This document shows, one piece after another, positions 356 to 26,485 of a DNA stretch of 27,078 nt. The translations under genes were made by a program, and so were the position numbers. Numbering within the stretch: position 1 is the stretch's first letter; each line of letters begins with the position of its first letter. Under the pieces are notes generated by a model. It worked only from the letters and a program-made list of their open reading frames with translations, had not been told where the DNA came from and did not search any database. The DNA comes from Glaciozyma antarctica PI12 (taxonomy: Eukaryota; Basidiomycota; Microbotryomycetes; Kriegeriales; Camptobasidiaceae): assembly GCA_002917775.1 (NCBI GenBank), contig KZ627146.1:1-27078 (forward strand). The letters are read 5' to 3'.

Positions 356-437
356 CTATGGTGGGTGATAGTTATTAAGACGTATCTAATACAACTATGA
401 GATACGAACATCTATCAGTCTATCTACCAGAAACACG

Positions 438-526
438 GGGCGAGAAAAAGATTCGAACTTTCAGATAGAGACAATCTATACGGTCGATTAGCAATCGACT
501 TCACTTTACCAATAGATGACTCGCCC
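438..526 (-). tRNA. trnS(gcu): tRNA-Ser(GCU)
   Basis: On the minus strand the acceptor GGGCGAG pairs with CTCGCCC. The anticodon loop TTGCTAA carries GCU, there is a long variable arm as expected for Ser, and the T loop is TTCGAAT. One T too many lies between the T stem (CTTTT) and the acceptor strand, a probable homopolymer overcount. It decodes AGY serine codons. Confidence 0.85.
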
Positions 527-589
527 TATATTATATTATGATACACTTTCTTATACCTAAGGTGAGTTGTTGGAGATCCTGTTTTCTTT

Positions 590-670
590 TAGCCGATTCG
601 AACTCGTAGATAGAAACACTATAGGGTCGATTAGCAATCAACTTCACTTTACCAATAGATGATTTGGCCC
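590..670 (-). pseudogene. Degenerate second copy of tRNA-Ser(GCU)
   Basis: From its 5' end through the GCU anticodon arm and variable arm this copy matches the intact tRNA-Ser at 438-526 closely. The 3' side has diverged: the T stem no longer pairs, and the 5' acceptor GGGCCAA has no complement after the TTCGAAT loop. It is most likely a tandem duplicate that lost function. Rescue by tRNA editing of the acceptor, known in some chytrid mitochondria, is possible but would not mend the T stem. Confidence 0.65.
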
Positions 671-696
671 TTATTGATACACTACAGTTTATTACT

Positions 697-767
697 AGGT
701 GTTGGCAGACTCGAACTGCCGACCATTGAGTTAAAAGCTAAACGCTCTACCACTGAGCTAAACACCC
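697..767 (-). tRNA. trnK(uuu): tRNA-Lys(UUU)
   Basis: The minus strand folds with acceptor GGGTGTT/AACACCT (one G-U), D arm AGCTCAGTGGTAGAGC, anticodon loop CTTTTAA and T arm CGGCAGTTCGAGTCTGCC. There is one pyrimidine mismatch in the anticodon stem. The anticodon UUU gives lysine. Confidence 0.9.
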
Positions 768-803
768 TGTACGACTAAACCGTTAGTCTAGTCTATAGCT
801 TAC

Positions 804-876
804 TGGGTCAACTTGATTCGAACAAGTATCATGGACCTCCAAAAAAATACCCGTCATGCCATTAGACCATGACCCA
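804..876 (-). tRNA. trnQ(uug): tRNA-Gln(UUG), anticodon loop oversized
   Basis: The acceptor TGGGTCA/TGACCCA and the T arm ACTTGTTCGAATCAAGT are perfect on the minus strand. The anticodon region reads GGGTATTTTTTTGGAGGTCC, with seven Ts before GGA, giving a loop about three bases too long and a weak stem. The best anticodon is UUG (Gln). The excess Ts fit the homopolymer expansions seen elsewhere in the window. Confidence 0.75.
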
Positions 877-895
877 ATTTATGTGCGTGAAAGGA

Positions 896-967
896 TACCA
901 AATCCGTGAATCGAACACAGGATTGCTACTTACAAGGTAGCCGTTTTACCACTAAACCAATCTGGCA
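896..967 (-). tRNA. trnT(ugu): tRNA-Thr(UGU)
   Basis: The minus strand folds with acceptor TGCCAGA/TTTGGTA (two G-U pairs), D arm TTGGTTTAGTGGTAAAAC, anticodon stem GCTAC/GTAGC around CTTGTAA, and T loop TTCGATT. The anticodon UGU gives threonine. Confidence 0.9.
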
Positions 968-1026
968 TTTCTCACACACTAAAACACATGCTCATTTTAG
1001 GTTATTAAATATCTCCAATAGATAGG

Positions 1027-1062
1027 GAGGGTAGTCATTTTACCACTAAACTAATCTGTCTA
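1027..1062 (-). pseudogene. 5'-half fragment of a tRNA-Thr
   Basis: The minus strand reads CAGATTAGTTTAGTGGTAAA followed by ATGACTACC, matching acceptor, D arm and 5' anticodon stem of the adjacent tRNA-Thr (896-967). The similarity stops at the anticodon loop; no 3' half follows. It is a partial duplicate left between two intact tRNAs. Confidence 0.65.
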
Positions 1063-1095
1063 CATCCCTAGTTGGTACAAGGAACATACATATAT

Positions 1096-1165
1096 AGACT
1101 GGACTGGAATCGAACCAGCGTGCACATCATGAAGAGATGTTATCCTACCATTAGATGACCAATCC
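1096..1165 (-). tRNA. trnE(uuc): tRNA-Glu(UUC)
   Basis: The minus strand has acceptor GGATTGG/CCAGTCT, D arm TCATCTAATGGTAGGAT, anticodon stem ACATC/GATGT around TCTTCAT, and T loop TTCGATT. The anticodon UUC gives glutamate. Confidence 0.88.
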
Positions 1166-1180
1166 TTTAGGCTAACGAAT

Positions 1181-1249
1181 GCGAACTTAGGAATCGAAAC
1201 CTAAAACTACTAGGCATGAGCCAATAATGATACCGTTTCACCAATTCGC
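1181..1249 (-). tRNA. trnM(cau): tRNA-Met(CAU)
   Basis: The minus strand has acceptor GCGAATT/AGTTCGC, anticodon stem ATTGG/CTAGT around CTCATGC (anticodon CAU) and a T arm TTAGG..CCTA. The T loop reads TTTCGATT, one T longer than usual, probably another homopolymer expansion. I cannot tell an initiator from an elongator species. Confidence 0.82.
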
Positions 1250-1346
1250 GTTTGGGCTAATACACCTGAAAGGGAATAGCACTTTACCTTACATCTTATA
1301 TTCTAATATCTTAAACCTTTAGCTATGTCTCTTATAGGTACGTAAT

Positions 1347-1362
1347 GAAAGGGGATTATAAT
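1347..1362 (-). terminator. 3'-end motif after nad4
   Basis: In the nad4 sense the sequence reads TATAATCCCCTTTCAT and begins within ten bases of the TAA stop. The same word follows most other transcription units in the window, so I read it as a transcript 3'-end processing or termination signal. Confidence 0.7.
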
Positions 1363-1365
1363 AGA

Positions 1366-2817
1366 TTATTCGTATAACAGTGCTGATACTGAGTAATGTA
1401 GGTCAGTAAGAATAATGTTAGGGAATAGTCCGAATAGGAACATAGTAAAGGCTAATGGTAGTAATACCATGAACTCACGTCGAGTTAAGTCAATAGCATA
1501 TCCAAGGTATGGGCTTCATGAACCGTTACATAATCGAGCGTAAAGCCAGATTGAGTATGCAGCAGATAGGATGATACCGGAACTCATAGCAAGACCAACT
1601 AGTGGACTACGCTGTATTGAACCTGTTAGACACATAAACTCTCCAATCCAGTTAACTGTAAGTGGAGTTGACATATTACCTAGAATGAATAGGAAGAATA
1701 TGGCTGAGAATAACGGCATGTATTGAGTCAGACCCCGGTAGTATCGAATTACACGTGTATGATATCGATCGTATAGAACACCACCTACACAGAAGAACAT
1801 AGCTGGAGATACTATACCGTGAGCAATACCAAGCATGATTGCACCTTCGATTCCCTGTAATGTATTAGAGAATAGACCGATAACAACCACTGACATGTGG
1901 GCGATAGATGAGTACGCAACAAGTACTTTGAAATCTGTTTGTCGTAGTGTAGTTAATGAACTGTACACTAATGTAACAACAGCAATAGTTTGCACTAGAG
2001 GTGAGAAGTAAGATGTTGCCTCAGGTAAGAATGGGATTAATACACGTAAGAATCCGTATGTAGCCAACTTAAGAATAAGTCCAGCTAGAATCATAGAAGC
2101 ACCAACTGGCGCCTCAACATGTGCCCGGCTTAATCAGATGTGAACTGGTAATAGCGGAGTCTTAACAGCAAGACTCAGGAAGATAGCAAGCCATAGTCAG
2201 CGTTGACTATCAAAGCTAATGTCGGCTAATGAGATCACCTCAAAGTCACTACTACCAACGTTGTAGAAGATAACTATGAAGGCTAATAGCATGAATAGTG
2301 AACCTAATAGTGTATATAGGAACAGTAAGAAAGAGGCACGTACACGGTCTGCACTAGCACCTCATACCCCAAATAATTAAGAATAGTGGGATTAATACTG
2401 CCTCGAAAAAATACGTAGAATAGAAGAAGATCTAATACTACGAATAATGCAACTAGTAGACTTTCAAGTACAAGGAAAGCAATCATAAATGTTTTGATAT
2501 TGTGTTTAACATTATCCCAACTAGCTAATACACATATTGGTAGTGTAAATGTTGTAAGTAATACGAAGTAAAGTGAAAGACCATCAACTCCTATGTGCAT
2601 GTGCAGATAGTCAAGTTGGTTGAACTCAACTGTAAACTGGTAGGCTGACGAGCTTGAGTCAAACTCTCCTCACATTATCATTGATAATATGAATGTCACT
2701 ACAGTTGTTAGAAGTGCAACACGTTTAACACGTGAGATTTGTAATGGTGTAGACTCACTCATTGGGGGCTAAGATTAAAGCACCAAGTAGTGGTATAAGT
2801 ATAAGTCCTGTAAGCAT
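1366..2817 (-). CDS. nad4: NADH dehydrogenase subunit 4
   Basis: Membrane-arm proton-pumping subunit of respiratory complex I. It is recognised by PVHIWLSRAHVEAPVGAS, FKVLVAYSSIAHMS and the C-terminal FPNIILTDLHYS; multiple hydrophobic helices run throughout. Start chosen is the ATG at 2817 (MLTGLILIPLLGALIL), stop TAA at 1366. Trp codons include TGA (HIW, NGSW), fixing code 4. Three one-base expansions interrupt the frame: the G5 run at 2764-2768, the A6 run at 2406-2411, and AAA or CCCC at 2367-2373 (plus-strand view). Without them the gene is 483 codons including the stop, normal for the family. The last ~750 bases are free of such sites. It heads the nad4 unit, with an AGGAGGT a few tens of bases before the start. 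Confidence 0.95.
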
Positions 2818-3249
2818 AATAATAATGAATAGATTTACCTCCTACTCTAAGCACCCTTTCATGAAGTTAGGGTAGCAAAGCAGTATGATTATATAATCAC
2901 AATAGAAACTTGCCCTACTCTACAGAAGAGTCATTGAAACACAACATAGAATAAGACAGGGTGGTCAGGTATTTATCCTGACGTTATCTTATATATGCCG
3001 CTTGTATTATAAGAGAGATACAAGTAATATCATGTTACTGTATTATCATTGCAACTCGTCCCCGGCGGGACGAAGGGGGTTAGTATTCTTACATACTACG
3101 ACACAGTGCTAATTTGATGTAGTACACGCTGTAGCTCTGTGTATATAGTATATTCTTTGTGTATATAGTTTGTCATACTCTTATATAACGACACGAGTGT
3201 GTAGTTCGCTAGTATTATTGAGGACATTCCCAAGAAAAGCATACTACTT
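2818..3249. other. Spacer between nad3 and nad4
   Basis: No gene is seen. The spacer holds a perfect GC-rich hairpin CGTCCCCGGCGGGACG near 3057-3072, a minus-oriented TATAAGAGTATGACAA word near 3170-3187 that could serve as a promoter for nad4, and a short direct duplication of TTTGTGTATATAG. Confidence 0.6.
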
Positions 3250-3266
3250 AAAAGGGGAATTATGAT
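3250..3266 (-). terminator. 3'-end motif after nad3
   Basis: Sense reading is TCATAATTCCCCTTTTAAG, a one-base variant of the common ATAATCCCCTTTT, starting about ten bases after the nad3 stop. It would end the nad2-nad3 transcript. Confidence 0.65.
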
Positions 3267-3275
3267 AATAATAGA

Positions 3276-3663
3276 TTAGGCCTCGATAGGAGTACGGTTA
3301 ATTGAAGATCGGTGATCAGTGAACTTAAGAGCTCCCTTACCGAATTCGTAGCAGAAACCAACAGTTAATAGTACTAAGAAGCTTGTGGCTACCCAGAATC
3401 CATATGCAGTTACTTGGTATAATGTAACAGCTACAGGGAATAGAACAGCAATCTCAAGATCGAAAAATTAAGAACAGTATACCTACAAGATAATACTGAA
3501 TTGCAAATGGTGCACGAACTTGACCGTATACAGGGGTTAAACCCCACACTCATAAGGAGTGACTTTCTCAGTATCGGGACGGGTGTACTGCTAATAGCAC
3601 GTTAAGAGCTAATAGAATACCTACAAGAATAGGTACGAAGAATAATAGAACAATCATTGTCAT
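3276..3663 (-). CDS. nad3: NADH dehydrogenase subunit 3
   Basis: Small membrane subunit of complex I. Diagnostic blocks are [33 protein letters not shown] and [15 protein letters not shown] at 3663 shares its A with the nad2 stop (TAATG), so the two genes are read from one transcript; stop TAA is at 3276. Four one-base expansions are inferred from the conserved blocks: GGG 3581-3583, CCCC 3542-3545, GGGG 3533-3536, and AAAAA 3463-3467 (plus-strand view). Discounting them leaves 128 codons with stop, the usual size. Because TGA is Trp, the shifted stretch stays open and could be mistaken for a divergent protein. Confidence 0.92.
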
Positions 3664-5232
3664 TAGTAACCATAGATAGACATAGCCATTAACTGAGTGC
3701 TATTTAATATTAGTGATGGCTGTAGTACGAATAGTACAATGAATAGTGTAAGAACAGCTATTACGTAACTATGTGTACTAGTTAGAACTGCAGGTGCTTG
3801 ACTTGAAGTTCCAGCTACTGGCGCATCGAAGTAAAGTACACGTACCACTCGTAAGTAGTATGCTGCACTTACTACACTAGCTACAATTGCAACTATTGAG
3901 ATGAAGTAGTAACCGTTGTGTATTGCAGTGTATAGAACTGCATACTTAGCGAAGAATCCCATTAGTGGAGGCACACCAGCCATAGAGAATAGACAGATAG
4001 TCATACTTAATGCAAGGATAGGGTTCTGTCGGAATTGTCCACTTAACTGTGAAATGAACTGTACATCACTACTCTGAGATGATCCAGATGTCTGTCGGCT
4101 ATGGATTAGATATCCGAAGGCTAATAGAATAAAGAATGAGTTTAAACTAGTTAAGCTATACTGAATTAAGTAGAATAGGAATGCGTCAATAGATTCTTGA
4201 CCACTAACAGCAAGTGCTAGTAGCATGAAACCTACGTGTGATATAGTACTGTAAGCAAACAGTCGTTTAATACGGAACTGTGCTAATCCAACTACTGTAC
4301 CAGTGATTAGTGATAGTAATGAACAAACTAATAGTAGAGCTTGTCATACGTTAACAGTTACGTCACCTAATGAAAGTCCAATACCTTCAGTTAATGAGTG
4401 TAATGTTAATAGCAGGATGAAGATAGAGATCTTAGGCATTACAGCAAGTCATGTTGTAACGATTGTAGGAACTCCGTCATATACATCTGGTGCCCAGTTG
4501 TGGAATGGAGCTGATCCAACTTTGAATAAGAAACCCAACTGTCATAATAACTAAACCAAGAATTACTCCTTGTGTTACGTTATCGGATGAAGATACAGAC
4601 ACTAAACTACTGATAGCGTCAAGGTTAGTTAGACCAGTGTATCCGTAGATTAGGCTTGAACCTAGTAAGATGAAGGCTGAAGATAAAGCACCTAATAAGA
4701 AGTACTTCAGTCCAGCTGCTGTAGCAGACTCACTGTTTCGGTAAAGAGCAGCAAGAATGTAAACAGCGAAACTTTGTAGCTCAATAGCTAAGTACAGTGA
4801 CACTAAGTCAGTACTAGATATTAAGAATGAGGCACCAATTGTAGTGAATACAATGATCATAGGATACTCAGCAATAGTAGGTCGAACAGTATCACCTGTA
4901 AGATTAGCAGTATTAACTGATGATGCTCATGGTAGAAGAATTAGTCCCCCCAACAATGAATATGAATAATTCAATTGCCATAGAGACTGTACTAACGTGA
5001 AACAGTCCACTATAAAGACTTACCCCCCGACCCCTATAGTAGTAACGTAGTAAGCGTTAAACGATAGTGCCGCGGCGAAGAAGAATGTTATAGAGGTCGC
5101 CCGGGTCAGCTGCACGGCCGATATATTTGAAGAAGAAAGCGGTATCGCAATTAACAGGGATAATAGTGAAATAACTAGCATTACATAACCTACAGTAAGT
5201 TTTTGTTTGAGATGTGATTCTTTGATAATCAT
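3663..5232 (-). CDS. nad2: NADH dehydrogenase subunit 2
   Basis: Membrane-arm antiporter-like subunit of complex I. Recognised by [69 protein letters not shown] and [11 protein letters not shown]. The ATG at 5232 ([12 protein letters not shown]) lies 6 bases from tRNA-Gly. Expansions are inferred at the C6 run 5023-5028 (two extra bases, or one missing), C6 4946-4951 (one) and AAA 4531-4533 (one); with four removed the gene is 522 codons with stop. About 860 bases from 4530 to the stop are clean. It overlaps nad3 by one base. Confidence 0.94.
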
Positions 5233-5238
5233 ATAAAT

Positions 5239-5308
5239 ACGCAGGAACAGGATCGAACTGTTGAGAACTCATTGGAAGTGAGTTATGTTACCACTACATC
5301 ACATGCGC
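5239..5308 (-). tRNA. trnG(ucc): tRNA-Gly(UCC)
   Basis: The minus strand has acceptor GCGCATG/CCTGCGT with one T-C mismatch, anticodon stem CTCAC..GTGAG-like pairing around CTTCCAA, and T arm AACAGTTCGATCCTGTT. The anticodon UCC gives glycine. It sits 6 bases upstream of nad2. Confidence 0.87.
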
Positions 5309-5373
5309 TTGTTTAGATATGCATATCTATAGACATAGGCATATATCTTAGTATATTTATTCTCTCATCTACT

Positions 5374-5445
5374 ACACTCCACAGGAATCGAACCCATAAT
5401 CTGCTCATCCGAAGTGAGACGCGTTACCAATTACGCTAGAAGTGC
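5374..5445 (-). tRNA. trnR(ucg): tRNA-Arg(UCG)
   Basis: The minus strand has acceptor GCACTTC/GGAGTGT, D arm TAGCGTAATTGGTAACGC, anticodon loop CTTCGGA (UCG) and T loop TTCGATT. It would read CGN arginine codons. Confidence 0.88.
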
Positions 5446-5523
5446 TTTCTACATCTAACTAGACCAGAATAGGACCTGTTATACCTAGAGTAATATATGA
5501 GAAGATAACGTATATTAATAATT

Positions 5524-5605
5524 ACAAGTAGTGGGACTTGAACCCACATGGTTGGTGACCACGGTTTCCTAAGAACCGCCCGGCTACCAATTACGGCATA
5601 CTTGC
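5524..5605 (-). tRNA. trnL(uag): tRNA-Leu(UAG)
   Basis: The minus strand has acceptor GCAAGTA/TACTTGT, anticodon stem CGGTT/AACCG around CTTAGGA (UAG), a class II variable arm TGGTCACCAACCA, and T arm GTGGGTTCAAGTCCCAC. It reads CUN leucine codons. Confidence 0.92.
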
Positions 5606-5623
5606 TTTATATACCTACCCTTA

Positions 5624-5642
5624 TAAAAGGGGGATTATAATA
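5624..5642 (-). terminator. 3'-end motif between atp9 and tRNA-Leu
   Basis: In minus sense the sequence reads ATTATAATCCCCCTTTTATA. It lies about 285 bases downstream of the atp9 stop and just before tRNA-Leu, and so would close the atp9 transcript. Confidence 0.6.
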
Positions 5643-5923
5643 GTATTGTTAATTAAACTATGAGTATAGTAATAAGAAACTCATCATACTTTCTCAAAGC
5701 ATTTAACTTTAGAGAGAAGATCATGTCTTTGCTTACTATACACCTCAACTTAACATCCTGTTATCCCGGCGGCCCAGGATAGGGTAAATAAAGTATAGAG
5801 GTAGATGATAAACATTAGGCGTATGATCGTTGAAGGGGAATATCCTTGCTAGTCAATTAAACCTATAAACTATTACTTCAAGAGAAGTGTTATCGAATAT
5901 AAAACAATGTTCTAGCATATAGC
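5643..5923. other. Spacer downstream of atp9
   Basis: No gene is seen. It contains a GC-rich hairpin TATCCCGGCGGCCCAGGATA near 5762-5781. It is probably the atp9 3' untranslated region. Confidence 0.5.
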
Positions 5924-6729
<806 letters not shown>

Positions 6730-7761
6730 ATGTCAATCTTTACATCACCACTAGAGCAGTTTGAAGTTACTTCTTTCGTTTGCTCTTAACTCACCATTAC
6801 TTGGAGGAGTTAACTTTTCATTAACTAACTTAGGGTTCTACTCATTAGTAGTTCTACTATTATCAATCGGTGTGCACGTTCTTGCATCAAACGACCGACG
6901 TCTTGTACCTAGCCGATGATCAGTTGGACTAGAGTCATCATACGCATCACTACACGGTATGGTTAAGGAGCAAATTGGATCAGCTAACGAGATGTACTTG
7001 CCATTCATCTACGCCCTATTCTTCTTCATCATCATCGCTAACCTTAACGGTAACGTACCATACGGTTACACTTTAACTACATCTATTATCGTATCAATCG
7101 GTCTTAGTTTCACAATCTTCTTCGGTGTAACAATCCTAGGTCTTTACCGACACGGTGTTCACTTCTTCTCATACTTCGTTCCAGCAGGAACTCCTATCGG
7201 AATGGTACCTCTACTAGTTCTTATTGAGTTAATCTCATACCTAGCTCGTGCATTCAGTTTAGGAGTGCGTTTATAATGAGCGCCTCTCGCATACTCCTTC
7301 TCCCATATTGATGGTGAGTGGTACAAAGTGCGGGGAGATAATTTAACTATATGCCGGGACTCCTAATCGCAAACTACCATCACGTGGTTATAATGTAAGT
7401 GATGAACATAGGACAATCAGCAGGTAATTATTACCTCAACGATCACACGTTAAACCATGGACTCTCAATGTTACATAATGAGAGTATGTGTAAGATATGA
7501 TCTATCTAAGCTTTGTATAGCAACTACAGGGCTTAAATGTTATTCGCCAACATGGTTGCTGGTCACACACTACTTAAAATTCTAAGTGGTATGTTATGGC
7601 CTATCTTAACTTCAGGTGTTGTTATGTTCTTCGTAGCATTACTACCTATGGCAATCTTCCTAGCTCTTGTAGGACTGGAGATCGCTGTTAGTTTCATCCA
7701 AGCCTACGTATTCGTTGTGCTTACTTGTGTTTACTTACGTGACGCAATTGACTTACACTAA
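6730..7761 (+). CDS. atp6: ATP synthase F0 subunit a (two exons)
   Basis: Stator subunit that forms the proton channels of ATP synthase. Exons are 6730-7270 and 7540-7761; the junction restores SLGVRL-FANMVAGH, with a U before and a G ending the intron. Conserved blocks are SPLEQFEV at the start, FFSYFVPAGTPIG, LIELISYLARAFSLGVRL, and VGLEIAVSFIQAYVFVVLTCVYLRDAIDLH at the end (two blocks quoted in part), including the essential channel arginine in ARAFSLGVRL. VPSRWSVGLE uses TGA for Trp. One expansion is inferred at TTT 6779-6781, 50 bases into the gene; without it the gene has 254 codons with stop. Confidence 0.95.
7271..7539 (+). other. Group I intron in atp6, no ORF
   Basis: A 269-base intron with 5' exon U and terminal G. 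The core has AATCAGCAGGTAATTATTAC followed by CTCAACGATCACACG near 7417-7450, the usual P6-P7 part of group I introns. No endonuclease frame is present. It lies at the conserved LGVRL/FANM position. Confidence 0.85.
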
Positions 7762-7781
7762 TACTGCTTATCTAATTATTT

Positions 7782-7798
7782 TTATAATCCCCCTTTCT
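7782..7798 (+). terminator. 3'-end motif after atp6
   Basis: TTATAATCCCCCTTTCT begins about 21 bases after the atp6 stop, in sense orientation. Confidence 0.65.
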
Positions 7799-7840
7799 AT
7801 GAAAAATATAAGGAATGGTATATAGATTATAGAATACATA

Positions 7841-7911
7841 GCGAGATTAATTTAACGGTTAGAATACATACTTTACACGTATGTTGCAGTAGTTCGACTC
7901 TACTATCTCGT
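7841..7911 (+). tRNA. trnV(uac): tRNA-Val(UAC)
   Basis: The plus strand has acceptor GCGAGAT/ATCTCGT, anticodon stem CATAC/GTATG around TTTACAC (UAC), and T arm AGTAGTTCGACTCTACT. It is the only tRNA on the plus strand here and follows the atp6 3'-end motif. Confidence 0.93.
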
Positions 7912-8130
7912 ATCAATATAGTCTGAAACATACTTTCATTACTTTGTTCCGCCACCTTTCTAGCAAGGACACAGTAGTTAAAAATAAGGCTTGTCATATT
8001 CTTATATAAATAACTACGTAAGAAGAAAGTATGCTGTAAGACACCCTTCCTTACGTAGGCTAAGCAATGCCATAGATATTGTTTTAAGTCTATTACATCA
8101 GGACCGGGATAATCTAATTAAAGATGACGT

Positions 8131-8516
8131 TGTGTATATATATTGTCATACTCTTATAGATTTCGGATGTTTAGATGTGTACGAATATATTGTCATGTTC
8201 TTATAGATTTCGGATGTTCAGATCTGTACCTATACATATATATTGTCATACTCTTATACCATTTCGGATGTTACGCCTCTGTTCGAAAGGTGCGAGTGTA
8301 GCCTTTTACGTTAGTAATAGGATACCAGGAGCATGCGAGTGTAGCAGTAAATACAAGGGCTTAAAGGCCTATAGCAACTAAAGTTTAATAAACAAAATAT
8401 TATTTGTGATCTGTTGAACTTAATAGTATATGTATTGGGCCTAAAGTATATTGCATGTAACCATTTTAATGATTAGTTTAGGTGGGGTCATGTAATGAGA
8501 AGAATTATATAAACAA
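8131..8516. repeat. Diverged internal copy of the right-end sequence
   Basis: This region matches about 26740-27074: both have repeated TTGTCATACTCTTATA and TTTCGGATG, then GCGAGTGTA, CCTTTTACGT, AGTAATAGG, GGAGCATGCGAGTGTA, TACAAGGGCTTAA, AATAGTATATGTATT, and ATGAGAAGAA with ATATAAA. Identity is patchy, with conserved blocks and variable links, as in a structured RNA or an old duplication. Short open frames here are not convincing genes. I do not recognise a known RNA; the 5' part of rnl was considered and could not be shown. Confidence 0.7.
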
Positions 8517-10120
8517 ACCTTAGCTATACCAATATACCCATGAAGGTATCTAATGTAGGGCCACAAATCATAACACGACGCAGATCCATCTCCAAACTCT
8601 CAGCGTTAGTTTGTCTGAGTATGAATCTTTGTCAATTCTATACAAACTAAATTAAATACAAAGGAGCGTAAGCTTATATAAAAACCCATTAATATTAAAT
8701 GACTTATACCTGGATCAATATATAATTAAAGGCCTTACGTCTGAGGGAGCGTTGCGACCGATGACTTGCGTTAGCAAGGCTGAGGGAGCTACCGCTCCCC
8801 CGGGGAGCTACCGCTCCCCGGGGCTAATACTAAAGCTGTTTTAGGTATTAATATAGCACCGTAAACAGCTCAAAATAAATAGAACTATTTTAATTTTGCC
8901 TTTTTGTATATATTTTCCCGCCAGCGGTTACTTTTATTATTTTACCGAAAAGGTAATAGTCAATCTCTTATAGTTTGACATACGTGACTGAGTGACTAAA
9001 AGGAAACTAACAAGATAAGGTCCATTTGCCTATTTGTGCGAATGACCTGTCGTATGTCTCTTATAAAATATAGTGATAAGCATGATATATAAGAACATGA
9101 CAACCACTGCCTACCACTGCACACCTACTGCATATCAGTCTCTTATAAATTAATACATATTCCCTTGAATTAACAAAAACATGAGTCTATTTTGCATTCT
9201 CAAAAAAGTGAGCATTTCTCGATTTTGTCTTTATTCATCATTATTTACACTTTAGTTTTACAAACCTCTCAGTCGCAGTATTAATATATCACTATGAGAC
9301 TATACACCTATTATTACCACCATAAACAACCAAATATTGGTCGATTTAGGACATCAATATTTTACATCATGTACAATATGCACACTCAGAGGATCCATTG
9401 CACCTCTATCATACTAAATAAAATAGTCTAATAACCACCCCCCTTCTCTGTCTTTCGAACAGGTAAACACCAAATATTGTATACCATCGATTTCATACAC
9501 CCTACAGTCCACACGGACGGGAGGGGGGGTAGGTATTTCTCGATGTGCATCTTATATCATAATTTATTGGGACTAAATCCACAAGATCTACCATTGCATG
9601 TATTTCATCCCTGGGGACACCTTAAACTAAATATCTAATATATACACTGTTTGTAAATATTGGACATTAATGAATAGTATTTACAAATACTCCATATTCG
9701 GCATAGCACCGTTTTAATGCCCTTTACAGTAAATATATTGATGTGTTTATCATATTCTAATTTATTTAGACAACATACATGACATGTCCATTACATGGAT
9801 TTCATACTTAATCATATCAAAGTACCTATCTAACATGTGTTTACCATACTAATATTTAGAGGTCTCATAAAAATAGAATCCCCCCTTTTACTTATATACA
9901 TTACCCCCCTACTTTCATATAGGTATGTTTTGGTATACTATTTCAAGCATATCATGGTGGTGTGCCTCTTTTCTTTAGTATTCCTTTAGAAACTGAAAAA
10001 AGCAGAGTCATGCCTTAACTAGACTTAGTTTACTACCTTCACAAGCTTGACTCGACTCACGAGTATCATCACTAGCCTATTCGCCTCACCTGTTGTCCCC
10101 TCTCTGGTATTACATAATAC
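8517..10120. other. Gene-free AT-rich region with scattered C runs
   Basis: About 1.6 kb with no convincing frame on either strand and no recognisable rRNA or tRNA. It contains a hairpin cluster (8764-8823), minus-oriented TATAAGAGA words at 8959-8972 and near 9134-9147, an isolated 3'-end-like AGAATCCCCCCTTTTAC near 9875-9891, and unusual runs such as CCCCCC near 9441 and GGGGGGG near 9524. Composition differs from the gene regions. It could be a control region, foreign DNA, or an unrecognised RNA. Confidence 0.5.
8764..8823. repeat. GC-rich multi-hairpin element
   Basis: Three adjacent perfect hairpins lie here: CTTGCGTTAGCAAG (about 8765-8778), GGGAGCTACCGCTCCC (8784-8799) and GGGGAGCTACCGCTCCCC (8802-8819). 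The last two have the same stem and TACC loop. Such double hairpins are known as mobile GC elements in the mitochondrial DNA of Allomyces and other chytrids. Confidence 0.8.
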
Positions 10121-10258
10121 GTCAGTCTCTTATAATTATATAGTATACTAAGATTTCAGTACCCAATCTTTTAATAATACACTCTAACATGTCAGTCTCT
10201 TATAATACACAACTGAGGAGCAGGCCGAAGAGGCAAGATTAAGATGTCAATCTCTTAC
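10121..10258 (-). promoter_or_regulatory. Three minus-oriented TATAAGAGAYTGAC repeats
   Basis: Copies lie at 10121-10134 and 10191-10204 (exact TATAAGAGACTGAC on the minus strand) and 10245-10258 (variant TGTAAGAGATTGAC). They point left into the gene-free region, where no gene is recognised. They may drive transcription of an unknown RNA, or be relics. Confidence 0.4.
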
Positions 10259-10266
10259 AGAAGAAA

Positions 10267-10283
10267 GTAAGGGGGATTATAAG
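10267..10283 (-). terminator. 3'-end motif after the displaced rns tail
   Basis: Minus sense reads CTTATAATCCCCCTTAC, seven bases beyond the displaced rns 3' end, in the same arrangement as at the intact rns end (11505-11522). This supports the view that the displaced copy was once the true rns terminus. Confidence 0.65.
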
Positions 10284-10289
10284 TGTTAT

Positions 10290-10472
10290 ATTGTTCAGCA
10301 GCACCTTCCGGTACCACTCCTATATTTCGACTTCATCTAAATCGAGGCAAATATGCTCACACAAGTTAGCCTACCTTGATAATGCATAGGGATACTCTTT
10401 AGATTAAAAAGGTACTTACTAGCTTATCCAAATAGGATTCGTCATGTTTAACTATACACACCTCTTTCCTAG
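10290..10472 (-). pseudogene. Displaced second copy of the rns 3' end
   Basis: About 180 bases are roughly 90% identical to the 3' end of rns at 11528-11706. Both start at CCTCTTTCC (plus-strand view) and end in the conserved GGTACCGGAAGGTGCTGCTG. A LAGLIDADG gene lies between the two copies. The arrangement fits insertion of a homing-endonuclease element that brought its own rns tail and pushed the resident one downstream, as described for atp6 in Allomyces and for several genes in Glomeromycotina. The copy next to the rns body is presumably the one used. Confidence 0.85.
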
Positions 10473-10627
10473 ATGTGACCATCCATGTCTATATATATAT
10501 ATGGGCACAATAGCTTTCTTTGGATGTAGGGTATAATTAGTGTCGATATATATTACATAGCAAGCAATTTAGGCGCACTATACCTTGCCATATCCGGATA
10601 TTACATGAAATAGGTTCACCTGTCATA

Positions 10628-10644
10628 AAAAGGGGAATTATGAA
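10628..10644 (-). terminator. 3'-end motif after the rns-linked endonuclease gene
   Basis: Minus sense reads TCATAATTCCCCTTTTT, about 16 bases after the endonuclease stop. It is the nad3-type variant with an extra T. Confidence 0.6.
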
Positions 10645-10658
10645 GAGAATTAGGATCG

Positions 10659-11284
10659 TTAGATACCTAGTTTGTATATAAGATCATGGTGCATAAACGG
10701 TTTCACAAGGTCAATAACTAAAGGCATTGAGCCCCCGGTAAACCTCGAATCCGAGGCTTACCCTTCTGGGTAATGATACCACTCCGTATACCGTAAGTAG
10801 CCAGCAACCTTATCAGTCGTTGGCACTCAGGCACAGTGAAGTTGTCAGTACATAGAATTAGGGTCTTGTCAGTGTAATACCCGTCATCCATAATCCAGTG
10901 AGCAAGTGATAAGGGTGAAAAATAAAAGACCTATATCCTGAGGAACTATTTTAATGTACTTCAGTAGGGTTGGGTCCCAGGTGTATCATAGTGAATGTAA
11001 TTCTGTAAATAAAAGGCTGACTGAGAGTGAAAATGTGGTATTGGACCACCTGTATTCCAAGGCTAGTGGATCAGTAAGTATTCTCTCGAAAAACCTAACG
11101 CCGCTATACCGTTTGTAGTGGGCATTGAATGTTTCTAGATGGTGATTGTAGGATAGTTTCGCCTTGTTCATCTCGAATCGCGCGTTAACCTGTTGGTTTT
11201 CCATCCATCTTGCGGCCTGTTCGTCGGAGACAACCATCTCCTAAAAACATTACCGGTAAGAACATGAAGAGTATCCTTAGGCAT
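10659..11284 (-). CDS. LAGLIDADG homing endonuclease (free-standing, in rns tail)
   Basis: A DNA endonuclease of the LAGLIDADG_2 type, which spreads its own gene by cutting an uninterrupted allele. In order: first motif LTGMFLGDG (near residue 12), NARFEMNKAKL, FTELHSLWY, second motif LAHWIMDDGYY, ILCTDNFTVPECQRLI, and a C-terminal LVKPFMHHDLIYKL ending at TAA 10659. The likely start is ATG at 11284. About five frame changes of one or two bases, mostly in homopolymers, separate these blocks, so the gene is either broken or affected by the same expansions as host genes. It lies between the rns tail copies rather than inside an intron with splice cores that I can see. Confidence 0.85.
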
Positions 11285-11504
11285 TTGAGATACTAGAAAT
11301 GGCAAGGTTGACATACTAATGAAGCTTGAAGGATCAGTTAAAAACCTCTATGTAAGAAGTCATAAGATCTGTAATGATGCCCCACCAATGTGACTGTCAC
11401 AGCATAAATAATAAATGTCATAGTCTGTTCTTTTTAACAACCCCCCCTCCCGCAAAGCTCCCTCTTTATACTGATTAGTTGGGCTAATATAACTAGGGAA
11501 CCAG

Positions 11505-11522
11505 GAAAGGGGGATCATAAAA
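11505..11522 (-). terminator. 3'-end motif after rns
   Basis: Minus sense reads TTTATGATCCCCCTTTC, one base different from the consensus, about six bases past the end of the conserved rns tail. Confidence 0.65.
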
Positions 11523-11527
11523 TTTGT

Positions 11528-12940
11528 ATTGTTCAGCAGCACCTTCCGGTACCACTCCTATATTTCAACTTAACTTCAATCGAGGCAAATAGGCTCACAC
11601 AAGTTCGTCTAACTTGATAATGCTTAGGGATACTCTCTAGATTAAAGAGGTCTTACTAGCAGATCCAGATAGGGTCCTTCATGTTTAACATACACACCTC
11701 TTTCCAAGTTTGATGAGTAATTAGTACATCCCGAGTGGTAGTTTCACCGTGTCGCACTACTACACGATTACTCGCAATTCCTATTTCATGTAGCCGATTA
11801 CAGACTACAATCCGTGTGAGTTCATTTGGTGATTAGCTCAGCCTCGCGGCGTTGCATCATATTGTTGAACTCTTCGCAGCACAACGGCAGCCCTGCACAT
11901 AAGGGTCATGGGGACCTCTCTTAGCCCTACTATACAACTATGTCAGTTGTAGACTGCTAAGTATTAATTAACAGTAAGGATTACGTATGTTAGCGGATCA
12001 AACCTCGCATCATGAGACACATACTGAAGAGGGTCATGCAGCACCTGTCATTGACCATTAAGATCAAGATTCAAGCAGCAGGTAAGGTTATGCGCGGGTT
12101 ATCGCATTAAGCGTCATGCTTCACTGCGGGTTCTCGGGACCGTCTAATCATTTGGTGTTCTGTCGTGAGACTGTACTTCCCAGGCGGAGTGCTTATTGCG
12201 TTTGCTAAGTGTCTGATTAATAAATAAAACCAAGCACTAGCACTCATAGTTTAGGGCGTAGACTACTCAGGTATCTAATCTGATTTGCTACCTACGCTTT
12301 CGTACCTCAGTGTCAATCTCTAGCTAATAACCTGCTTTCGCCATTGGTAGTCCTTCAAGTATCAAAGCATATCAGCGCTACTCTTGAAATTCTGGTTATC
12401 TCTATTGGATTCTAGCCCCTCATTGAAATGAATGAGAAGCAACCTACGTACCCTTTACGCCGATTCATAACGAACAATGCTTGCCCCACCGGTATAACCG
12501 AAACTTCTGGCACCGGAATTGGTTGGGACTGGTAATTTAATTGGTCATTATCCTACTAAATTTTATTCCTTAGACCTGAGCCTAAATGGAATTCTGGCTT
12601 TCACTATCAATCTTTCGATCATTGTAAATGATTCTCGACTGTTGCCTCTAAGATTAGAGTGTGGGACTTCTCATTCTCCACTGTGGTCTTAAAGTCTTTC
12701 AACCTAGACTAAACGTCATCGTCTTGGTAGGCCATTACCCCACCAACTAACTGCTGTTTGCCAAGAGCATCAATAGGCGAATACAATTCTTTCAATATGG
12801 TTGATTAAACCTCCTAAAGGTAGCTTCCTAGCAATTACTCACCCGTACGCCATGGTCACTAATGTAACCATCGACTTACATGTCTACAAAAAGCCAGATA
12901 GCATTCGTTCGGGGGCCATGATTAAGCCCTTAAATTTTAT
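11528..12940 (-). rRNA. rns: Mitochondrial small-subunit ribosomal RNA
   Basis: RNA core of the small mitoribosomal subunit. On the minus strand one finds the 5' AAGGGCTTAATCATGG start region (near 12920), the 530-loop side near 12840, ATTAGATACCTGAGTAGTC (the 790 region, about 12250-12285), the helix 28-34 stretch around 11860-11900, ATTGCGAGTAATCGTG (about 11760-11780) and the tail GGTACCGGAAGGTGCTGCTG. The decoding strand reads TACTAATTACTCATC (11712-11726) instead of bacterial TACACACCGCCCGTC; I recall similar forms in fungal mitochondria. Ends are estimates from homology. The last ~180 bases appear to have been replaced by an incoming copy. Confidence 0.92.
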
Positions 12941-13084
12941 TGATAGTCTATGACTACTTAGTATATCGACACCTGAATTATTGAATCCAGTACGTGATAG
13001 TGCATGTTACTTATAATTCAGCTTTCATTAAGATACATATAAGAATATGACGACATAAAAACAAGAGAAATGTATCATTGTCTT

Positions 13085-13156
13085 GTAAGTCTCTTATAGT
13101 TACCCGCTAACGATATTAAACATAGATTCGCCTCAGTGTCTTGTAAGTCTCTTATA
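13085..13156 (-). promoter_or_regulatory. Two promoter-like repeats upstream of rns
   Basis: Minus-strand TATAAGAGACTTAC occurs at 13085-13098 and 13143-13156, about 145 and 205 bases before the estimated rns 5' end, in sense orientation. They match the atp6-upstream word in ten of fourteen or more positions. Confidence 0.5.
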
Positions 13157-13164
13157 TTTAGCCA

Positions 13165-13181
13165 CAAAAGGGGATTATAGA
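13165..13181 (-). terminator. 3'-end motif after atp8
   Basis: Minus sense reads TCTATAATCCCCTTTTG, about 25 bases after the atp8 stop. It would end a cox1-atp8 transcript, since cox1 has no such motif of its own. Confidence 0.68.
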
Positions 13182-13205
13182 AGAAGCTGTTACAGATGTG
13201 TGTCA

Positions 13206-13352
13206 TTATAGCTTAGTAATGTACATTCGTGTTACAAATAACTCAGCGAATACTGGTAGGATGTAAGTTCCAAATACGTAAACCATTGTGATTAGTACTA
13301 AGAATGAGAATGATAGTTGGTTAATGAAGTAGAATGGTAATAGTTGTGGCAT
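13206..13352 (-). CDS. atp8: ATP synthase F0 subunit 8
   Basis: Small single-span stator subunit of ATP synthase. The 48-residue product begins [15 protein letters not shown] and ends [10 protein letters not shown], matching fungal atp8 over its whole length. It was too short for a 60-residue cut-off but is unambiguous. No frame disturbance is present. It lies about 320 bases downstream of cox1 on the same strand, a common fungal order, and is followed by the 3'-end motif. Confidence 0.95.
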
Positions 13353-13669
13353 AGTTATAAGATTTAGAGTAGCCTTACATATCCTACTGTCCTATGTTAA
13401 ACTTAGTCTAACATAATAAATAGCTATGTAGTTTAGGCAGATCAGACTATTTACCCTTCGTCCGCCAGGTGGGTGGATTATAGATAGCTTATTAGGCTAA
13501 AGTCCTATCGACCGTAAGGTCAAAGGCCTAGTCCCCCGGAGGGGGAACTAAGGGGTAAATAAATAGACCTAGTGTTTATTTCTCTTCCTGAAAGGAAAGG
13601 AGAAGCTTTAAAAGACGGGGGGGCTTGTAAGTTGATTATTAGTCAAGTCAATACAAAACATAGACTAAA
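13353..13669. other. cox1-atp8 spacer with GC-rich hairpins
   Basis: No gene is seen. Hairpins include GACCGTAAGGTC near 13509-13520, AGTCCCCCGGAGGGGGAACT near 13530-13549, and TTCTCTTCCTGAAAGGAA near 13581-13598. The lack of a 3'-end motif here suggests that cox1 and atp8 are transcribed together. Confidence 0.6.
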
Positions 13670-20460
<6,791 letters not shown>

Positions 20461-21108
20461 TAAATATGTAGTCCTTGTCTCTGCTTATGACACCAATAGA
20501 GAACTATCGGTACTTAATAGGAGGGAAGCAATCCTCAGTCATGATAAATCAGGTCACTAAGAATTGTGTAGTAACCTCTCTTTCCTAGTTTCGAGAGAGA
20601 GAAGGGCGAAGTGGTTATTACAGGCTACCGTGTCCCTTATATGTTACATGATATCTTAATATATAAGAGATTGACGGCTACATATTTAAGACATAAAGTC
20701 ATTCTCTTTTAGGTTTACAGTAATCCAATGTTACGCCATATCATAGTACATAAGGGATTCCCGACTATACATTACGCCATATCATAATATATAAGAGATT
20801 GACGATTATGCACTACATTATGTACTAGACATAATACATTACATTTAAGACACAAAGTCTCGGAGAGGGTAATTGTCTTTTAGGTATCGTCTGCCCCGTC
20901 AGTTTAAAAAAGGACAAAGGTGTTCCTATTTATTAGAATGGAAGGGGTAAGTCTACATTTATAAATGTAATGGACAAAGGAGTAACATGATGTTCTTATC
21001 ATATCTGTTGTCTTAAATAGGCATCATGTTAGTTCAACAGTATTATAAGACCTAGTTGCATCAGAATGCTTACCTCGACTATGTCTAGGTTACTAGTATG
21101 AGCTCTTT
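20461..21108 (+). promoter_or_regulatory. cox1-cox2 divergent spacer with promoter-like repeats
   Basis: No gene is seen. Plus-oriented TATAAGAGATTGACG occurs at 20662-20676 and 20790-20804. A separate pair of direct repeats, AAGACATAAAGTC..TCTTTTAGGT and AAGACACAAAGTC..GTCTTTTAGGT, lies near 20687-20712 and 20847-20886. The TATAAGAG words point toward cox2, some 650-790 bases away; a closer one (TATATAAGAGGGCC) is at about 21272. Confidence 0.45.
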
Positions 21109-21179
21109 AAGACCAGGGGGGAATCGAACCTCCATAAATCAATTATCGGCTGATCGCTCTACCATTGAGCTATGATCTT
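21109..21179 (-). tRNA. trnI(gau): tRNA-Ile(GAU)
   Basis: The minus strand has acceptor AAGATCA/TGGTCTT, D arm TAGCTCAATGGTAGAGC, anticodon stem ATCAG/TTGAT around CCGATAA (GAU) and T loop TTCGATT. The 3' T-stem strand has six Cs where five are expected, again one base too many. Confidence 0.87.
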
Positions 21180-21235
21180 TGTAGAGTTTAGTAGGCCAAA
21201 CTAATGTTACTTATTCTCTTTTTATGAATCTTACC

Positions 21236-21251
21236 TTGTCATACTCTTATA
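21236..21251 (-). promoter_or_regulatory. Promoter-like word upstream of tRNA-Ile
   Basis: Minus strand TATAAGAGTATGACAA lies 57 bases upstream of tRNA-Ile in sense orientation. It is the same word that occurs twice in each inverted-repeat copy and in 8131-8260. Confidence 0.4.
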
Positions 21252-21448
21252 AATGACCTCAAACTCTTAAATATATAAGAGGGCCTAGTTGCCCTTGTAG
21301 ACTAGAGTTGTTCTAACTAGATATGATCAAGGTTATAATCCAGGGTCCCACAGTAACGTTTTCATTAACCAGGCTGTAGTGTCTAGGCCTGCAGACAGGT
21401 ATGCGAGCTTTCTCCCCCTTTAAGAATATTACAGGGTGCCATGTCTGT

Positions 21449-23039
21449 ATGTTAAATGAGCTGTTGAGCGCACTTATTATATTATTATGCTTCTTAATTT
21501 CAACATTATTATCATTCTTATCACCATTACACTGTGATTCATCATACCCATGACAAATAGGTTTCCAAGACGGAAGTACACCTAACTTCGAGGGTATCGT
21601 TGAGTTACACGATACTATCTTTTTCTTACCTAGTAGTTATCAGTTTCCTAGTATTCTGAATGCTAGCTGTTATCATGTTTAAATTCAGTAGCAGCAAAGT
21701 AGGAATTGTTCACAAATACCATAACCATGGTACAATGATCGAGCTTATCTGGACTATTACTCCAGCTCTAATCTTAATTGCTATTGCTTTCCCCAAGTTT
21801 TCAAAACTTCTTTACTTAATGGATACTAAACTTTGTCCCCTTTAATAGTAATATTAATTGAATCATTTCACTATATGCTGGGATGTCTTATTAGAATATG
21901 TACGTAAAACTCCTTAAATATTAAGTACGTCATAACCATGCTCTACTTCATTATATAAGCCAATCAGCAGGAAATTTACCGTATTTACACTATGACAAAT
22001 CCTCAACGACTACACGTGAAACTCCTTTAGATACAAAGGAGATTATATAGTTCTACTTCCCCTTGTCCCGTGAAGAGAGGGGGAAACGGAAGTTATCTCA
22101 CCTACTATGACAGTTAAAGTAGCCGGACACCAATGATATTGGTCTATTCATAATCCTATTGTTGAATTATTATAATATGCATAGGATTGTTAGTTAAGGC
22201 CCTCAGCCCTATTTAACACTCTCAACAGAGGAGTGAAGAAACAAGCTGAGCAATACACTATATACTGGAACAAGTAAGATACTGCTACTTTATAAGTTGC
22301 AATGCAGACGTTCTTTTTACTTTCAATCAGTAGGAAATCCCTCAGAGACTATACGTGTACATGCAGAACTTCTGCTAAAGATATAGTCCAGCCCTCTAAC
22401 ACAGAGGGCAGCTTACGAGTACTCTGACTTCGTTAGTGCTGACGGAGAGTCAATTGAGTTCGACTCATACATGGTTCCAGAGTCAGATCTAGAGTTAGGT
22501 CAATTACGACTTCTAGACGTTGACAACCGTGTAGTTGTACCAGTAGACACACACATCCGATTTATCGTGACAGGACAAGACGTTATCCATGACTTTGCTG
22601 TACCTTCATTAGGAGTTAAAATTGATGCCGTACCTGGTTATAGGATTTATTCGGCCAGAATACATCACTATATGCAAGAATCTTCTTACTCCTTAAGGGT
22701 ACCATATCTTAGCTGTGCCTTCATTGTGTTTATTCATGATGAAGGTTAGATTAAGAGGGTTACAATCTCTTAGGTTGAAAAAGACTTGCAGCATTACCAT
22801 GCTCAGAGAATATACGTGGTGAGTTTATATTATTATAAATAAGACATATTCCATTTAAGACTACTAAACTAGTGTCTTAATAATAGCGTTTAAACCAAGT
22901 GTCTGTTATTGTACAACGTGAAGGAGTATACTACGGGCAATGTAGTGAGATCTGTGGAGTATACCATGGATTCATGCCAATCGTTGTTGAGGCAGTATCT
23001 CTAGAGAAATACTTGAGCTGATTAGATAGCCAAGTTTAA
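21449..23039 (+). CDS. cox2: Cytochrome c oxidase subunit 2 (four exons)
   Basis: CuA-bearing subunit of complex IV that accepts electrons from cytochrome c. Exons are 21449-21824, 22089-22143, 22412-22638 and 22887-23039. Blocks are [61 protein letters not shown] and the CuA ligand block [20 protein letters not shown] one-base expansion lies at 21620-21627 (FFYLVV), and three occur within 16 bases (CCCC 21791-21794, TTTT 21798-21801, AAAA 21803-21806), where their sum restores frame but turns the conserved FPSFKLL into FPKFSKLL. Discounting four gives 269 codons with stop. Exon 2 is only 55 bases. Confidence 0.95.
21825..22088 (+). other. cox2 intron 1 (group I, no ORF)
   Basis: 264 bases, between YLMD and EVISP. 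It has CTATATGCTGGGATG near 21872-21886, AATCAGCAGGAAATTT near 21961 and CTCAACGACTACACG near 22002-22017. Confidence 0.83.
22144..22411 (+). other. cox2 intron 2 (group I, no ORF)
   Basis: 268 bases, splitting the Ser codon of WYWS-YEY. It has AATCAGTAGGAAATCCCTCA, GAGACTATACGTG and AAGATATAGTCC between 22324 and 22391. Confidence 0.83.
22639..22886 (+). other. cox2 intron 3 (probable group I, no ORF)
   Basis: 248 bases, between DAVPG and RLNQ. The core is less clear: CACTATATGCAAGAATC, then TTGCAGCATTACCATGC and CAGAGAATATACGTGG near 22784-22819. Boundaries are fixed by the protein. Confidence 0.72.
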
Positions 23040-23251: not shown

Positions 23252-26200
23252 ATGCTATCCGTACTATACAGCCTTCTTGAAGTGCTTATTGTGTTAGTAC
23301 CTGTTCTGCTATCAGTCGCCTTTATGACTATCATCGAGCGTAAAGTCTTAGCTAGTATGCAGCGACGTGTAGGTCCTAACGTAGTAGGTTACTATGGAAT
23401 AATGCAACCGTTTTCAGAGAGCGGCGTACTTAAGTAGGATCTTCCCTACTTTACGAAAAATAAACTATATGCTGGGACATCTTTTATAAGCTGAGATACA
23501 AATACATTGTTATAATTCTCACGCCTTATCCACCCTCCTTTCAGAGGGTAGACTATAAGTTTATCAGCAGGCATAAGCCTCAACGATCAGACGTTTTACG
23601 GAGCAATCCGATGATATGATCTTAGGAGCATTTATATTATTTATATTTACCTAGTCTCACGGTGACATATGACTTATTAAAATGAAGTCAAATCGAATCA
23701 TTACAGGGCTAGCAACTCTCTTTAGTTCAAAGTTACCTCAGAAACGATACAGTTTCGTTATATCTAACTCTTCTTGAAGCTCTATTATTAAGTTTAAGAA
23801 ACATATTGCGGTAGATCACTGTAAAAAACTTTGAGTCAGATCGCTTAGCTTTCCAAACTAAGTGATGGGGGCGTCTCTGGAGTCTACAAGATAACCTTCC
23901 TACCTTTTCGCTTATTTACCTATTACGGGTCTTCTTCTAACTTAGGGTCACGATTTAAGTTTCACTACTTTAATACTAAGTTTAGTCCTACCTTTTTTAG
24001 GGGTATTTATAGCGGTATTTGGATGGTCATGCTTTTCAGTCACAGTTGTAGAACTGTGTGAATAAAACTGAACGCCGAGTTCGTGAGGATTGATACCTGT
24101 CTACTTTTCACCCTCTTCTTAACATGTTAACTGAAGCTTTCGGCTGCCGTCCTCCTAAAGATAGTTCTCGCCATAGCCCAATTACTCGTGCTCGAATAAG
24201 TGCTAGTTTGACAGGTAAACGACATAGCGATCTTACACGAGCCTCAATGAGTGCTTCACGTTCAGGGCCTTTGAACCGTTTATACGGAAAAAGTCTTCCA
24301 AAGCATGTTCTAGATGCAGCCGCTATTAAAGCAGGCACTGCCATATATGTGTACGATGCAGATTCATTTGCGTTAGTTAATGGAATGCCTTTCCGTAGTA
24401 TCCGTGATACAGTGAAGCATATGCCAATAAGCCCTGATTCGGTTTCTCGCTATTTAGATACTGGAAAGCCCTTTAAAGGCTACTTTTACTTCACTATTGT
24501 TCAAACAGTCAAGCCTTGCTAGTACCTTTTCCTTCATTTATAAATATAATATAGTTGACTCTTAGTTTCAGATGCCCTTAAGTTAGTGGTTAAAGAGACA
24601 GTTGTACCACAGCATGCTACTCGAAGTTTATTCTTCTTAGCACCTGTTATCAGCCTTGTATTTAGCCTTTTAGGTTGAGCCGTGATACCTTTCGGTAGCG
24701 GTTTAGCTCTATCTGACTTCAGCCTTGGTATACTATATTCACTTGCGGTATCATCTATCGGAATATATGGTGTGCTATTCGCGGGTTGGTCTGCTAACTC
24801 TAAGTATGCATTCCTTGGTTCACTACGTAGTACAGCCCAAATGATCAGTTACGAGTTAATTCTTAGCTCTGCTGTTCTAGCTGTAATTCTACTTACAGGA
24901 ACATTCCATTACACAACTATTATCGAGAGCCAACAAAGTGTTTGGTTCTTAATCCCACTATTACCATTATTCATTATCTTCTTCATCTCAGTATTAGCTG
25001 AGACTAACCGTACTCCATTCGATCTACCAGAGGCTACTTGGCCTCTTTAAATACTTCTATATGCTGAGATGCGTCACTCCTACCTACTCTAGATGAGTTA
25101 CAATTGGTAGAGAATCGCCAAATCAGCAGGTATAACAATACCCTAGAGACTTCACGAAGCCGTCTATTTATTTACTGCAGAACATGGTATAATAAATAGG
25201 CATGATAAAGTCCATAATAATTTAACTAAACACTAATGATCACAGAAGGTAACGTACAGAAGTCAGATTTATTATCTATCTTAGGTCGCTTTTTTCTTAT
25301 GGCTAACTACTAGTACTGTAGAAGCCCCTCGCTAATCTTGCTTCACCTATTATGTCCTTCAAAGGACCTTGATATAGATAGTACTTTAGAGGACATTGCC
25401 CCGTCAGCTACGAGGAAAATCTGGTATATATACTTTCATATGTATTGTGGATGGTAAACAGTATATAGGTAGTGCACAGGACTTGTACCATCGTATGCAA
25501 AGAGCACTTAAATGGGCGTAAAAAGCAATGTTCGGCTTCAACGAGCCTTAGGGAAACATGGTATTCCCAACTTTATCTTTGTAGTTTATGAGTTTGCACC
25601 TTATACTATTCCTGCTATTCTGGTACTAGAGACATTATATATAAGTCTAGTTACTTCGAACATGTTGTACAATATACGGTTGTCAGCTACATCTATGTTA
25701 GGTTACAAACATACAGCTGAGGCCATCGCTAAAAATGGTTGCTCGTCTGGCTAATCCAATTAACCATCCTATGTACGGAAAGACTCACACATTAGCGTCG
25801 CGGTTATTGATTAGCAAACCGGGTCCACTTAATCCCATGTATGGAAAACACCATAGCCCATCAACTAAAGCTATTCTAAGCGCTCAGAAGTCGCGACCCG
25901 TATATTCATACAGCCTTGACAATGTATTTGTTCAAGAGTTTACTAGTGCCACTGCTGCTAGTGTACATTTTGGGGTTAATTAAAACCACCATTGGACGAT
26001 ATGTTCGATCTGGTAAGATATTCCAAAACAAGTATTACTTGCGTAGTTCCCGTGTTTAGTTAAAGTATTATTAGGAGTCGGAGCTGGTAGCTGGGTTCTT
26101 TACTGAGCATTCAGGTATGATCTTCGTATTCTTCTTCTTAGCCGAGTACTGTAGTATTGTATTAATGTCTGCATTCACTGCCATCCTATTCATGGGTGGT

Positions 26201-26434: not shown

Positions 26435-26450
26435 TATGAATTAGTACTAT

Positions 26451-26466
26451 CTATAATCCCCTTTTC
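26451..26466 (+). terminator. 3'-end motif after nad1
   Basis: CTATAATCCCCTTTTC begins 17 bases after the nad1 stop and just before the right inverted repeat. Confidence 0.68.
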
Positions 26467-26485
26467 GCGTATTGGGTGTTAAGTC

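Follow-up and report, generated by a model that had tools for sequence, protein, structure and literature searches.

Insertion-biased surplus bases in the mitochondrial genes of Glaciozyma antarctica PI12, a probable artefact of miscounted homopolymer runs

In kinetoplastid mitochondria, uridine-deletion RNA editing acts on U only. Frameshifting and translational bypassing are known from other mitochondria (PMC9550989, PMC5009743): in Perkinsus, frame changes of +1 and +2 recur across the mitochondrial genes, and the frameshift sites use otherwise unused codons, conserved between four species (PMC9550989), while in Magnusiomyces capitatus blocks of nucleotides are reported to be inserted at 81 positions and bypassed in translation (PMC5009743). 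A test of pyrosequencing on two plastid genomes tied more than 97% of errors to homopolymer runs and reported no substitution errors; insertions made up 79% of the run-associated errors, the base of a run was also inserted at a nearby place, errors lay near contig ends, 97% of the runs were A/T and the error rate was 0.037% (PMC1564139). Here we examine surplus bases in the mitochondrial protein genes carried by the first 27,078 bases (hereafter the window) of scaffold C1 (1,046,007 bases) in the assembly of the fungus Glaciozyma antarctica PI12 (19,983,266 bases in 18 pieces).

The window has a fungal-type mitochondrial gene content, with nad4, nad3, nad2, atp9, atp6, the small subunit ribosomal RNA (rRNA) gene rns, atp8, cox1, cox2, nad1 and transfer RNAs (tRNAs), and TGA is read as tryptophan, 18 TGA codons being aligned to W in the references. 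Seven of its nine protein genes carry bases that break or lengthen the reading frame. These bases share with pyrosequencing errors that they are single and tied to runs, are mostly insertions and in some cases lie beside a run; the lack of substitutions and the nearness to contig ends are common to both as well (PMC1564139). Sequence comparison leads us to conclude that they are very probably run-length mistakes in the assembled sequence, that is, an artefact and no new way of reading genes.

Surplus bases in the protein genes

Reading frames were followed by a frameshift-aware alignment of DNA to protein, in which one- or two-base insertions and deletions carried equal cost and introns were allowed. 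As the search gave no near relative, the reference was another fungal mitochondrial genome with intact genes, namely contig NZ_BMRP01000034.1 (L030, L117-L120; 74,524 bases, 29.5% guanine plus cytosine (G+C)). This contig is filed under Streptomyces albospinus JCM 3399 and is a fungal mitochondrial genome, i.e. contamination. A scan of the viral collection for relatives with nad4 gave no match; with cox1 it gave one contig (L110, IMGVR_UViG_3300025914_000377; 15,216 bases), which looks like fungal mitochondrial DNA, with pieces of cox1 and nad1 and frames resembling intron endonucleases. Rhodotorula, once considered as the source of the window, was rejected: it carries the phenylalanine ammonia-lyase family, to which nothing in the genome gave a match.

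With a uniform penalty of 18 over the nine genes, the 2,546 aligned codons contained 15 surplus bases, in 11 single and 2 double insertions, and were free of deletions. A second setting, in which the penalty was lowered to 12 for cox1 only, gave 18 insertion events amounting to 22 bases, again with no deletion, in 2,541 codons. Deletions were absent from the nine genes at every uniform penalty tried (12, 15, 18, 24 and 30). A version of the alignment that lacked the option of two-base insertions returned two -1 events, in nad2 and nad3, and both became +2 once that option was added.

The sequence-only reading of this DNA had proposed about 25 extra bases in seven of the nine genes, all of them additions, on both strands and with nad1 and atp8 clean. 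Our count agrees with it on each point. The 22 aligned bases are distributed as cox1 8, nad4 3, nad2 4, nad3 4, atp9 1, atp6 1, cox2 1, nad1 0 and atp8 0, and the affected genes lie on the plus as well as the minus strand. Inspection by eye of a frame-neutral stretch of cox2 adds three more bases, equivalent to one extra residue in a conserved block, so that the total reaches 25 in 7.6 kb, a rate of about 0.33% of the coding bases. Of the eight bases in cox1, six belong to two frame-neutral clusters; these six are less certain than the frame-breaking bases. The motif QHLFWFFGHPEV was found in all six cox1 references examined (eight were stored, of which L126 and L127 were skipped), and the window reads one residue more there; a second pattern, from the start of cox1, matched none of the six.

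Against bacterial references, nad4 showed three insertions with four of four, and in nad3 all three events were recovered with three references and two with the fourth. Of the three nad2 events one was seen, in each of four comparisons, and nad1 showed no event in four of four. As a control, the intact fungal nad4, nad2, nad1 and nad3 were aligned to four bacterial proteins each, and 16 of 16 pairs were free of events; the distant fungal reference had no frameshift in the genes tested.

Insertions are also present outside these nine genes. The window is followed on C1 by 17,025 N and then by a second mitochondrial piece (C1:44104-75127), which carries the large rRNA gene, nad5, nad4L, nad6 and a gene reading as cob; insertions were found there in nad4L, nad5 (three places) and nad6 (one place). 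Two doubtful events in that piece were left uncounted, a +1 at the boundary of nad4L and nad5 (piece-B position 23764) and a -2 in the badly aligned tail of the gene reading as cob. Surplus bases had further been claimed for all intron endonucleases; the three frames tested contain, between them, six insertions and one deletion relative to references about 35% identical. In the first part of each cmscan alignment of rns, one-base inserts occur in the window and in the reference alike.

Homopolymer runs, duplicate copies and nuclear genes

The events are concentrated at homopolymer runs, as had been proposed. Runs of at least three bases are touched by 16 of the 18 events (background 29% of codons), runs of at least four by 13 (background 4.7%; none of 100,000 resamplings reached this number) and runs of at least five by 10 (background 1.5%). 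The link is favoured because an inserted base lengthens its own run; when the inserted bases were removed, 10 of 18 events were still at runs of at least four. The surplus bases are of all four kinds, A, C, G and T. An uneven distribution, with nad1 and the end of nad4 clean, had also been suggested. Those parts are indeed free of events, but the distribution is only weakly uneven, with P = 0.26 for the longest event-free stretch under a uniform model; five pairs of events lie no more than 15 codons apart (P = 0.02). Runs of at least four number only about one per kb in the exons of nad1 and in the event-free part of nad4, which therefore offer few targets.

Run lengths vary in non-coding DNA too. 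The right end of the window also exists as a second, inverted assembly, which forms the right end of the second mitochondrial piece, and over the full overlap (675 columns) the two copies differ by 9 mismatches and 11 gaps. Within 605 columns of spacer, the first 70 bases being left out, there are 12 single-base insertions or deletions (indels) and one substitution; ten of these indels lie in runs of at least three, and the window copy is the longer at five and the second copy at seven. Since the right end is spacer, no decoding acts there, and neither recoding nor editing can explain why the copies differ. The same behaviour is seen in a 355-base repeat, whose three copies each have private run lengths: at one site a T is present in the second copy of the window and missing from the two other copies and from a short nuclear copy on C3. 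Non-coding DNA is thus affected, and duplicate assemblies of it differ in run length.

Short nuclear copies of the mitochondrial DNA occur at C3:124324-124409 (86 of 88 positions identical) and C8:651280-651353 (72 of 74); the latter, 74 bases long, differs by two substitutions and is free of indels.

In nuclear genes of this assembly no clear frameshift was seen. They were followed through the hit tables of PF00012, PF00006 and PF00118 (74 hits, 8,079 profile positions), a test that is blind to frame-neutral changes. About 57 nuclear events would be expected at the mitochondrial event rate, and none of the 53 junctions between neighbouring hits was a plain frameshift (within 12 bases). Surplus lengths of 52-65 bases, as expected of short introns, were found at 32 of the 53, and one junction of -133 is a gap between weak hits.

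Consensus error and its rivals

Insertion-biased consensus error was regarded as the simplest account by the sequence-only reading, and the run differences between duplicate spacers, the nuclear genes with no clear frameshift and the lack of a special codon at the slip sites all speak for it. The mitochondrial consensus would then have been called, probably from low or uncorrected coverage, by a presumably pyrosequencing-like method that makes homopolymer runs too long and occasionally places an extra base beside one. The physical DNA would be free of the surplus bases and would most likely contain ordinary open reading frames.

Several observations fit this explanation less well. All 18 events in the window are insertions, against 79% in pyrosequencing, the surplus comprises all four bases, against runs that were 97% A/T, and the pyrosequencing rate of 0.037% is about nine times below that of the window (PMC1564139). 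One of the seven events in the endonuclease frames is a deletion, and one nuclear junction, of 19 surplus bases, fits no clear class. The 70 bases omitted from the spacer comparison contain about eight substitutions, and the copies could be two real, slightly different ones; moreover, the nuclear copy on C3 is without another T that all mitochondrial copies have.

Were the bases present in the mitochondrial DNA, the ribosome might restore the frame by shifts of +1 (or +2) at many places, in the manner of Perkinsus or Magnusiomyces. Insertions only are seen and most protein genes are affected, which would suit such recoding; the window resembles Perkinsus in that +1 and +2 frame changes recur from one mitochondrial gene to another (PMC9550989), and Magnusiomyces in that, in a fungal mitochondrion, inserts disrupt the frame of most protein genes (PMC5009743). 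The slip sites themselves are ordinary. None of the 18 events begins with one of the unused sense codons AGA, AGG and GGC; 17 begin with codons used 5 to 163 times and one with TAG, inside a frame-neutral cluster of cox1, the start of an event being exact only to about one codon in this check. The window differs from Perkinsus in its slip-site codons and in that spacer runs vary too, and it differs from Magnusiomyces, with its inserted blocks, in that each event adds one or two bases, at a run or close to it. We give recoding hardly any credence.

It might equally be proposed that the bases are real and that deletion editing removes them from the RNA, or transcriptional slippage at runs masks them. 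The position of the events at runs is where slippage could act, and editing of the kinetoplastid kind would likewise strip surplus bases at the RNA level. Such editing concerns U, whereas the surplus in the window comprises A, C, G and T; neither process explains the run-length differences between the duplicate spacer copies, nor the events at short runs of two or three. The chance that either operates here seems to us practically nil. In sum, we find no support for editing by deletion, for slippage or for recoding at many +1 sites. A variant in which the bases are real, unstable run lengths are tolerated and the frame is repaired by the ribosome or the RNA polymerase at roughly two dozen ordinary homopolymers, with no signal codon, is in our judgement very unlikely; if true, it would constitute a new mode of frame maintenance.

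The window could also be a decaying copy of mitochondrial DNA integrated in the nucleus. The two mitochondrial pieces (C1:1-75127; the window and loci L014-L017), with N gaps between, head a nuclear scaffold of 1.05 Mb, which runs on past 1,979 N into DNA of about 60% G+C, and short copies of mitochondrial DNA are present in the nuclear DNA of C3 and C8. The absence of TAA and TAG from 2,541 aligned codons speaks against decay, as does the lack of any deletion in the nine genes. The join to nuclear DNA exists only through the N gaps of 17,025 and 1,979 bases, the two pieces overlap each other in an orientation contrary to their placement, and no other long copy was found in the assembly by a DNA search with positions 1-20000 of the window. 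A nuclear origin is consequently most improbable. Because the right ends of both mitochondrial pieces overlap inverted, the order of the scaffold is wrong, and these misplaced pieces, whose overlap is at odds with the way they are ordered and oriented, point further to problems in the assembly.

Consensus error thus remains by far the most probable source of the surplus bases, and it carries a caution: organelle pieces in an otherwise clean assembly may bear insertion-biased errors of their own, imitating recoding or editing.

Features of the window and further observations

Table 1. Positions of genes, insertion sites and repeated DNA in the window
Feature	Position	Strand	Remarks
355-base repeat, first copy	1-355		other copies at window 26486-26844 (inverted) and C1:74695-75051
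nad4	1366-2820	-	three insertion events, about 2760, 2414 and 2374; none from there to gene end
nad3 (aligned part)	3296-3660	-	three events, four bases, near 3585, 3542 and 3468
nad2 (aligned part)	3671-5223	-	three events, four bases, near 5031, 4960 and 4539
atp9 (aligned part)	5962-6149	-	one event near 6125, not recovered with penalty 24 or 30
atp6	6745-7759	+	one intron (about 7268-7540); one event near 6775
rns (small subunit rRNA)	11521-12937	-	few one-base inserts relative to bacterial model, in first part of alignment
atp8	13208-13352	-	no event
cox1	13681-20418	-	ten exons; with penalty 18 one event, with penalty 12 six events (eight bases)
cox1, frame-neutral clusters	about 20409-20399 and about 17993-17985		
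cox1, single sites	about 20358 and about 17411		
cox2	21506-23034	+	three introns; event near 21623; by eye, frame-neutral triple near 21795-21815
nad1	23261-26432	+	three exons; no event
window right end	26410-27078		assembled again, inverted, at C1:74458-75127

Around the 530 loop of rns, a near-universal sequence reads GUGCCAGAAGUUUCGGUUAUAC in the window and GUGCCAGCAGCCGCGGUAAUAC in the bacterial model. Several of these changes look compensatory in the 505-507/524-526 pseudoknot and the 522-527 pair.

Two short elements recur in the window. The motif TATAATCCCCYTTT has 13 matches with at most two mismatches, where 0.8 would be expected. Seven of them (at 1347, 3251, 7783, 11506, 13166, 23081 and 26452) lie within about 50 bases downstream of the 3' ends of nad4, nad3, atp6, rns, atp8, cox2 and nad1, respectively, and on the strand of the gene, and from this placement the motif is possibly a 3'-end signal. 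The element TTATAAGAGACTGACA is matched 23 times with at most three mismatches (0.58 expected), with many of the matches at 6306-6522 and 8958-10260; we presume it to be promoter-like, by its resemblance to the yeast mitochondrial promoter.

None of the nine aligned genes uses AGA or AGG, yet the second mitochondrial piece has predicted tRNA-Arg genes (L016:1042-1197) whose anticodons are CCT and TCT. Neighbouring tRNAs with anticodons TCA and CCA (L016:1348-1420 and 1457-1531) may serve TGA and TGG as distinct tRNAs for tryptophan, or one of the two may be misread through a surplus base.

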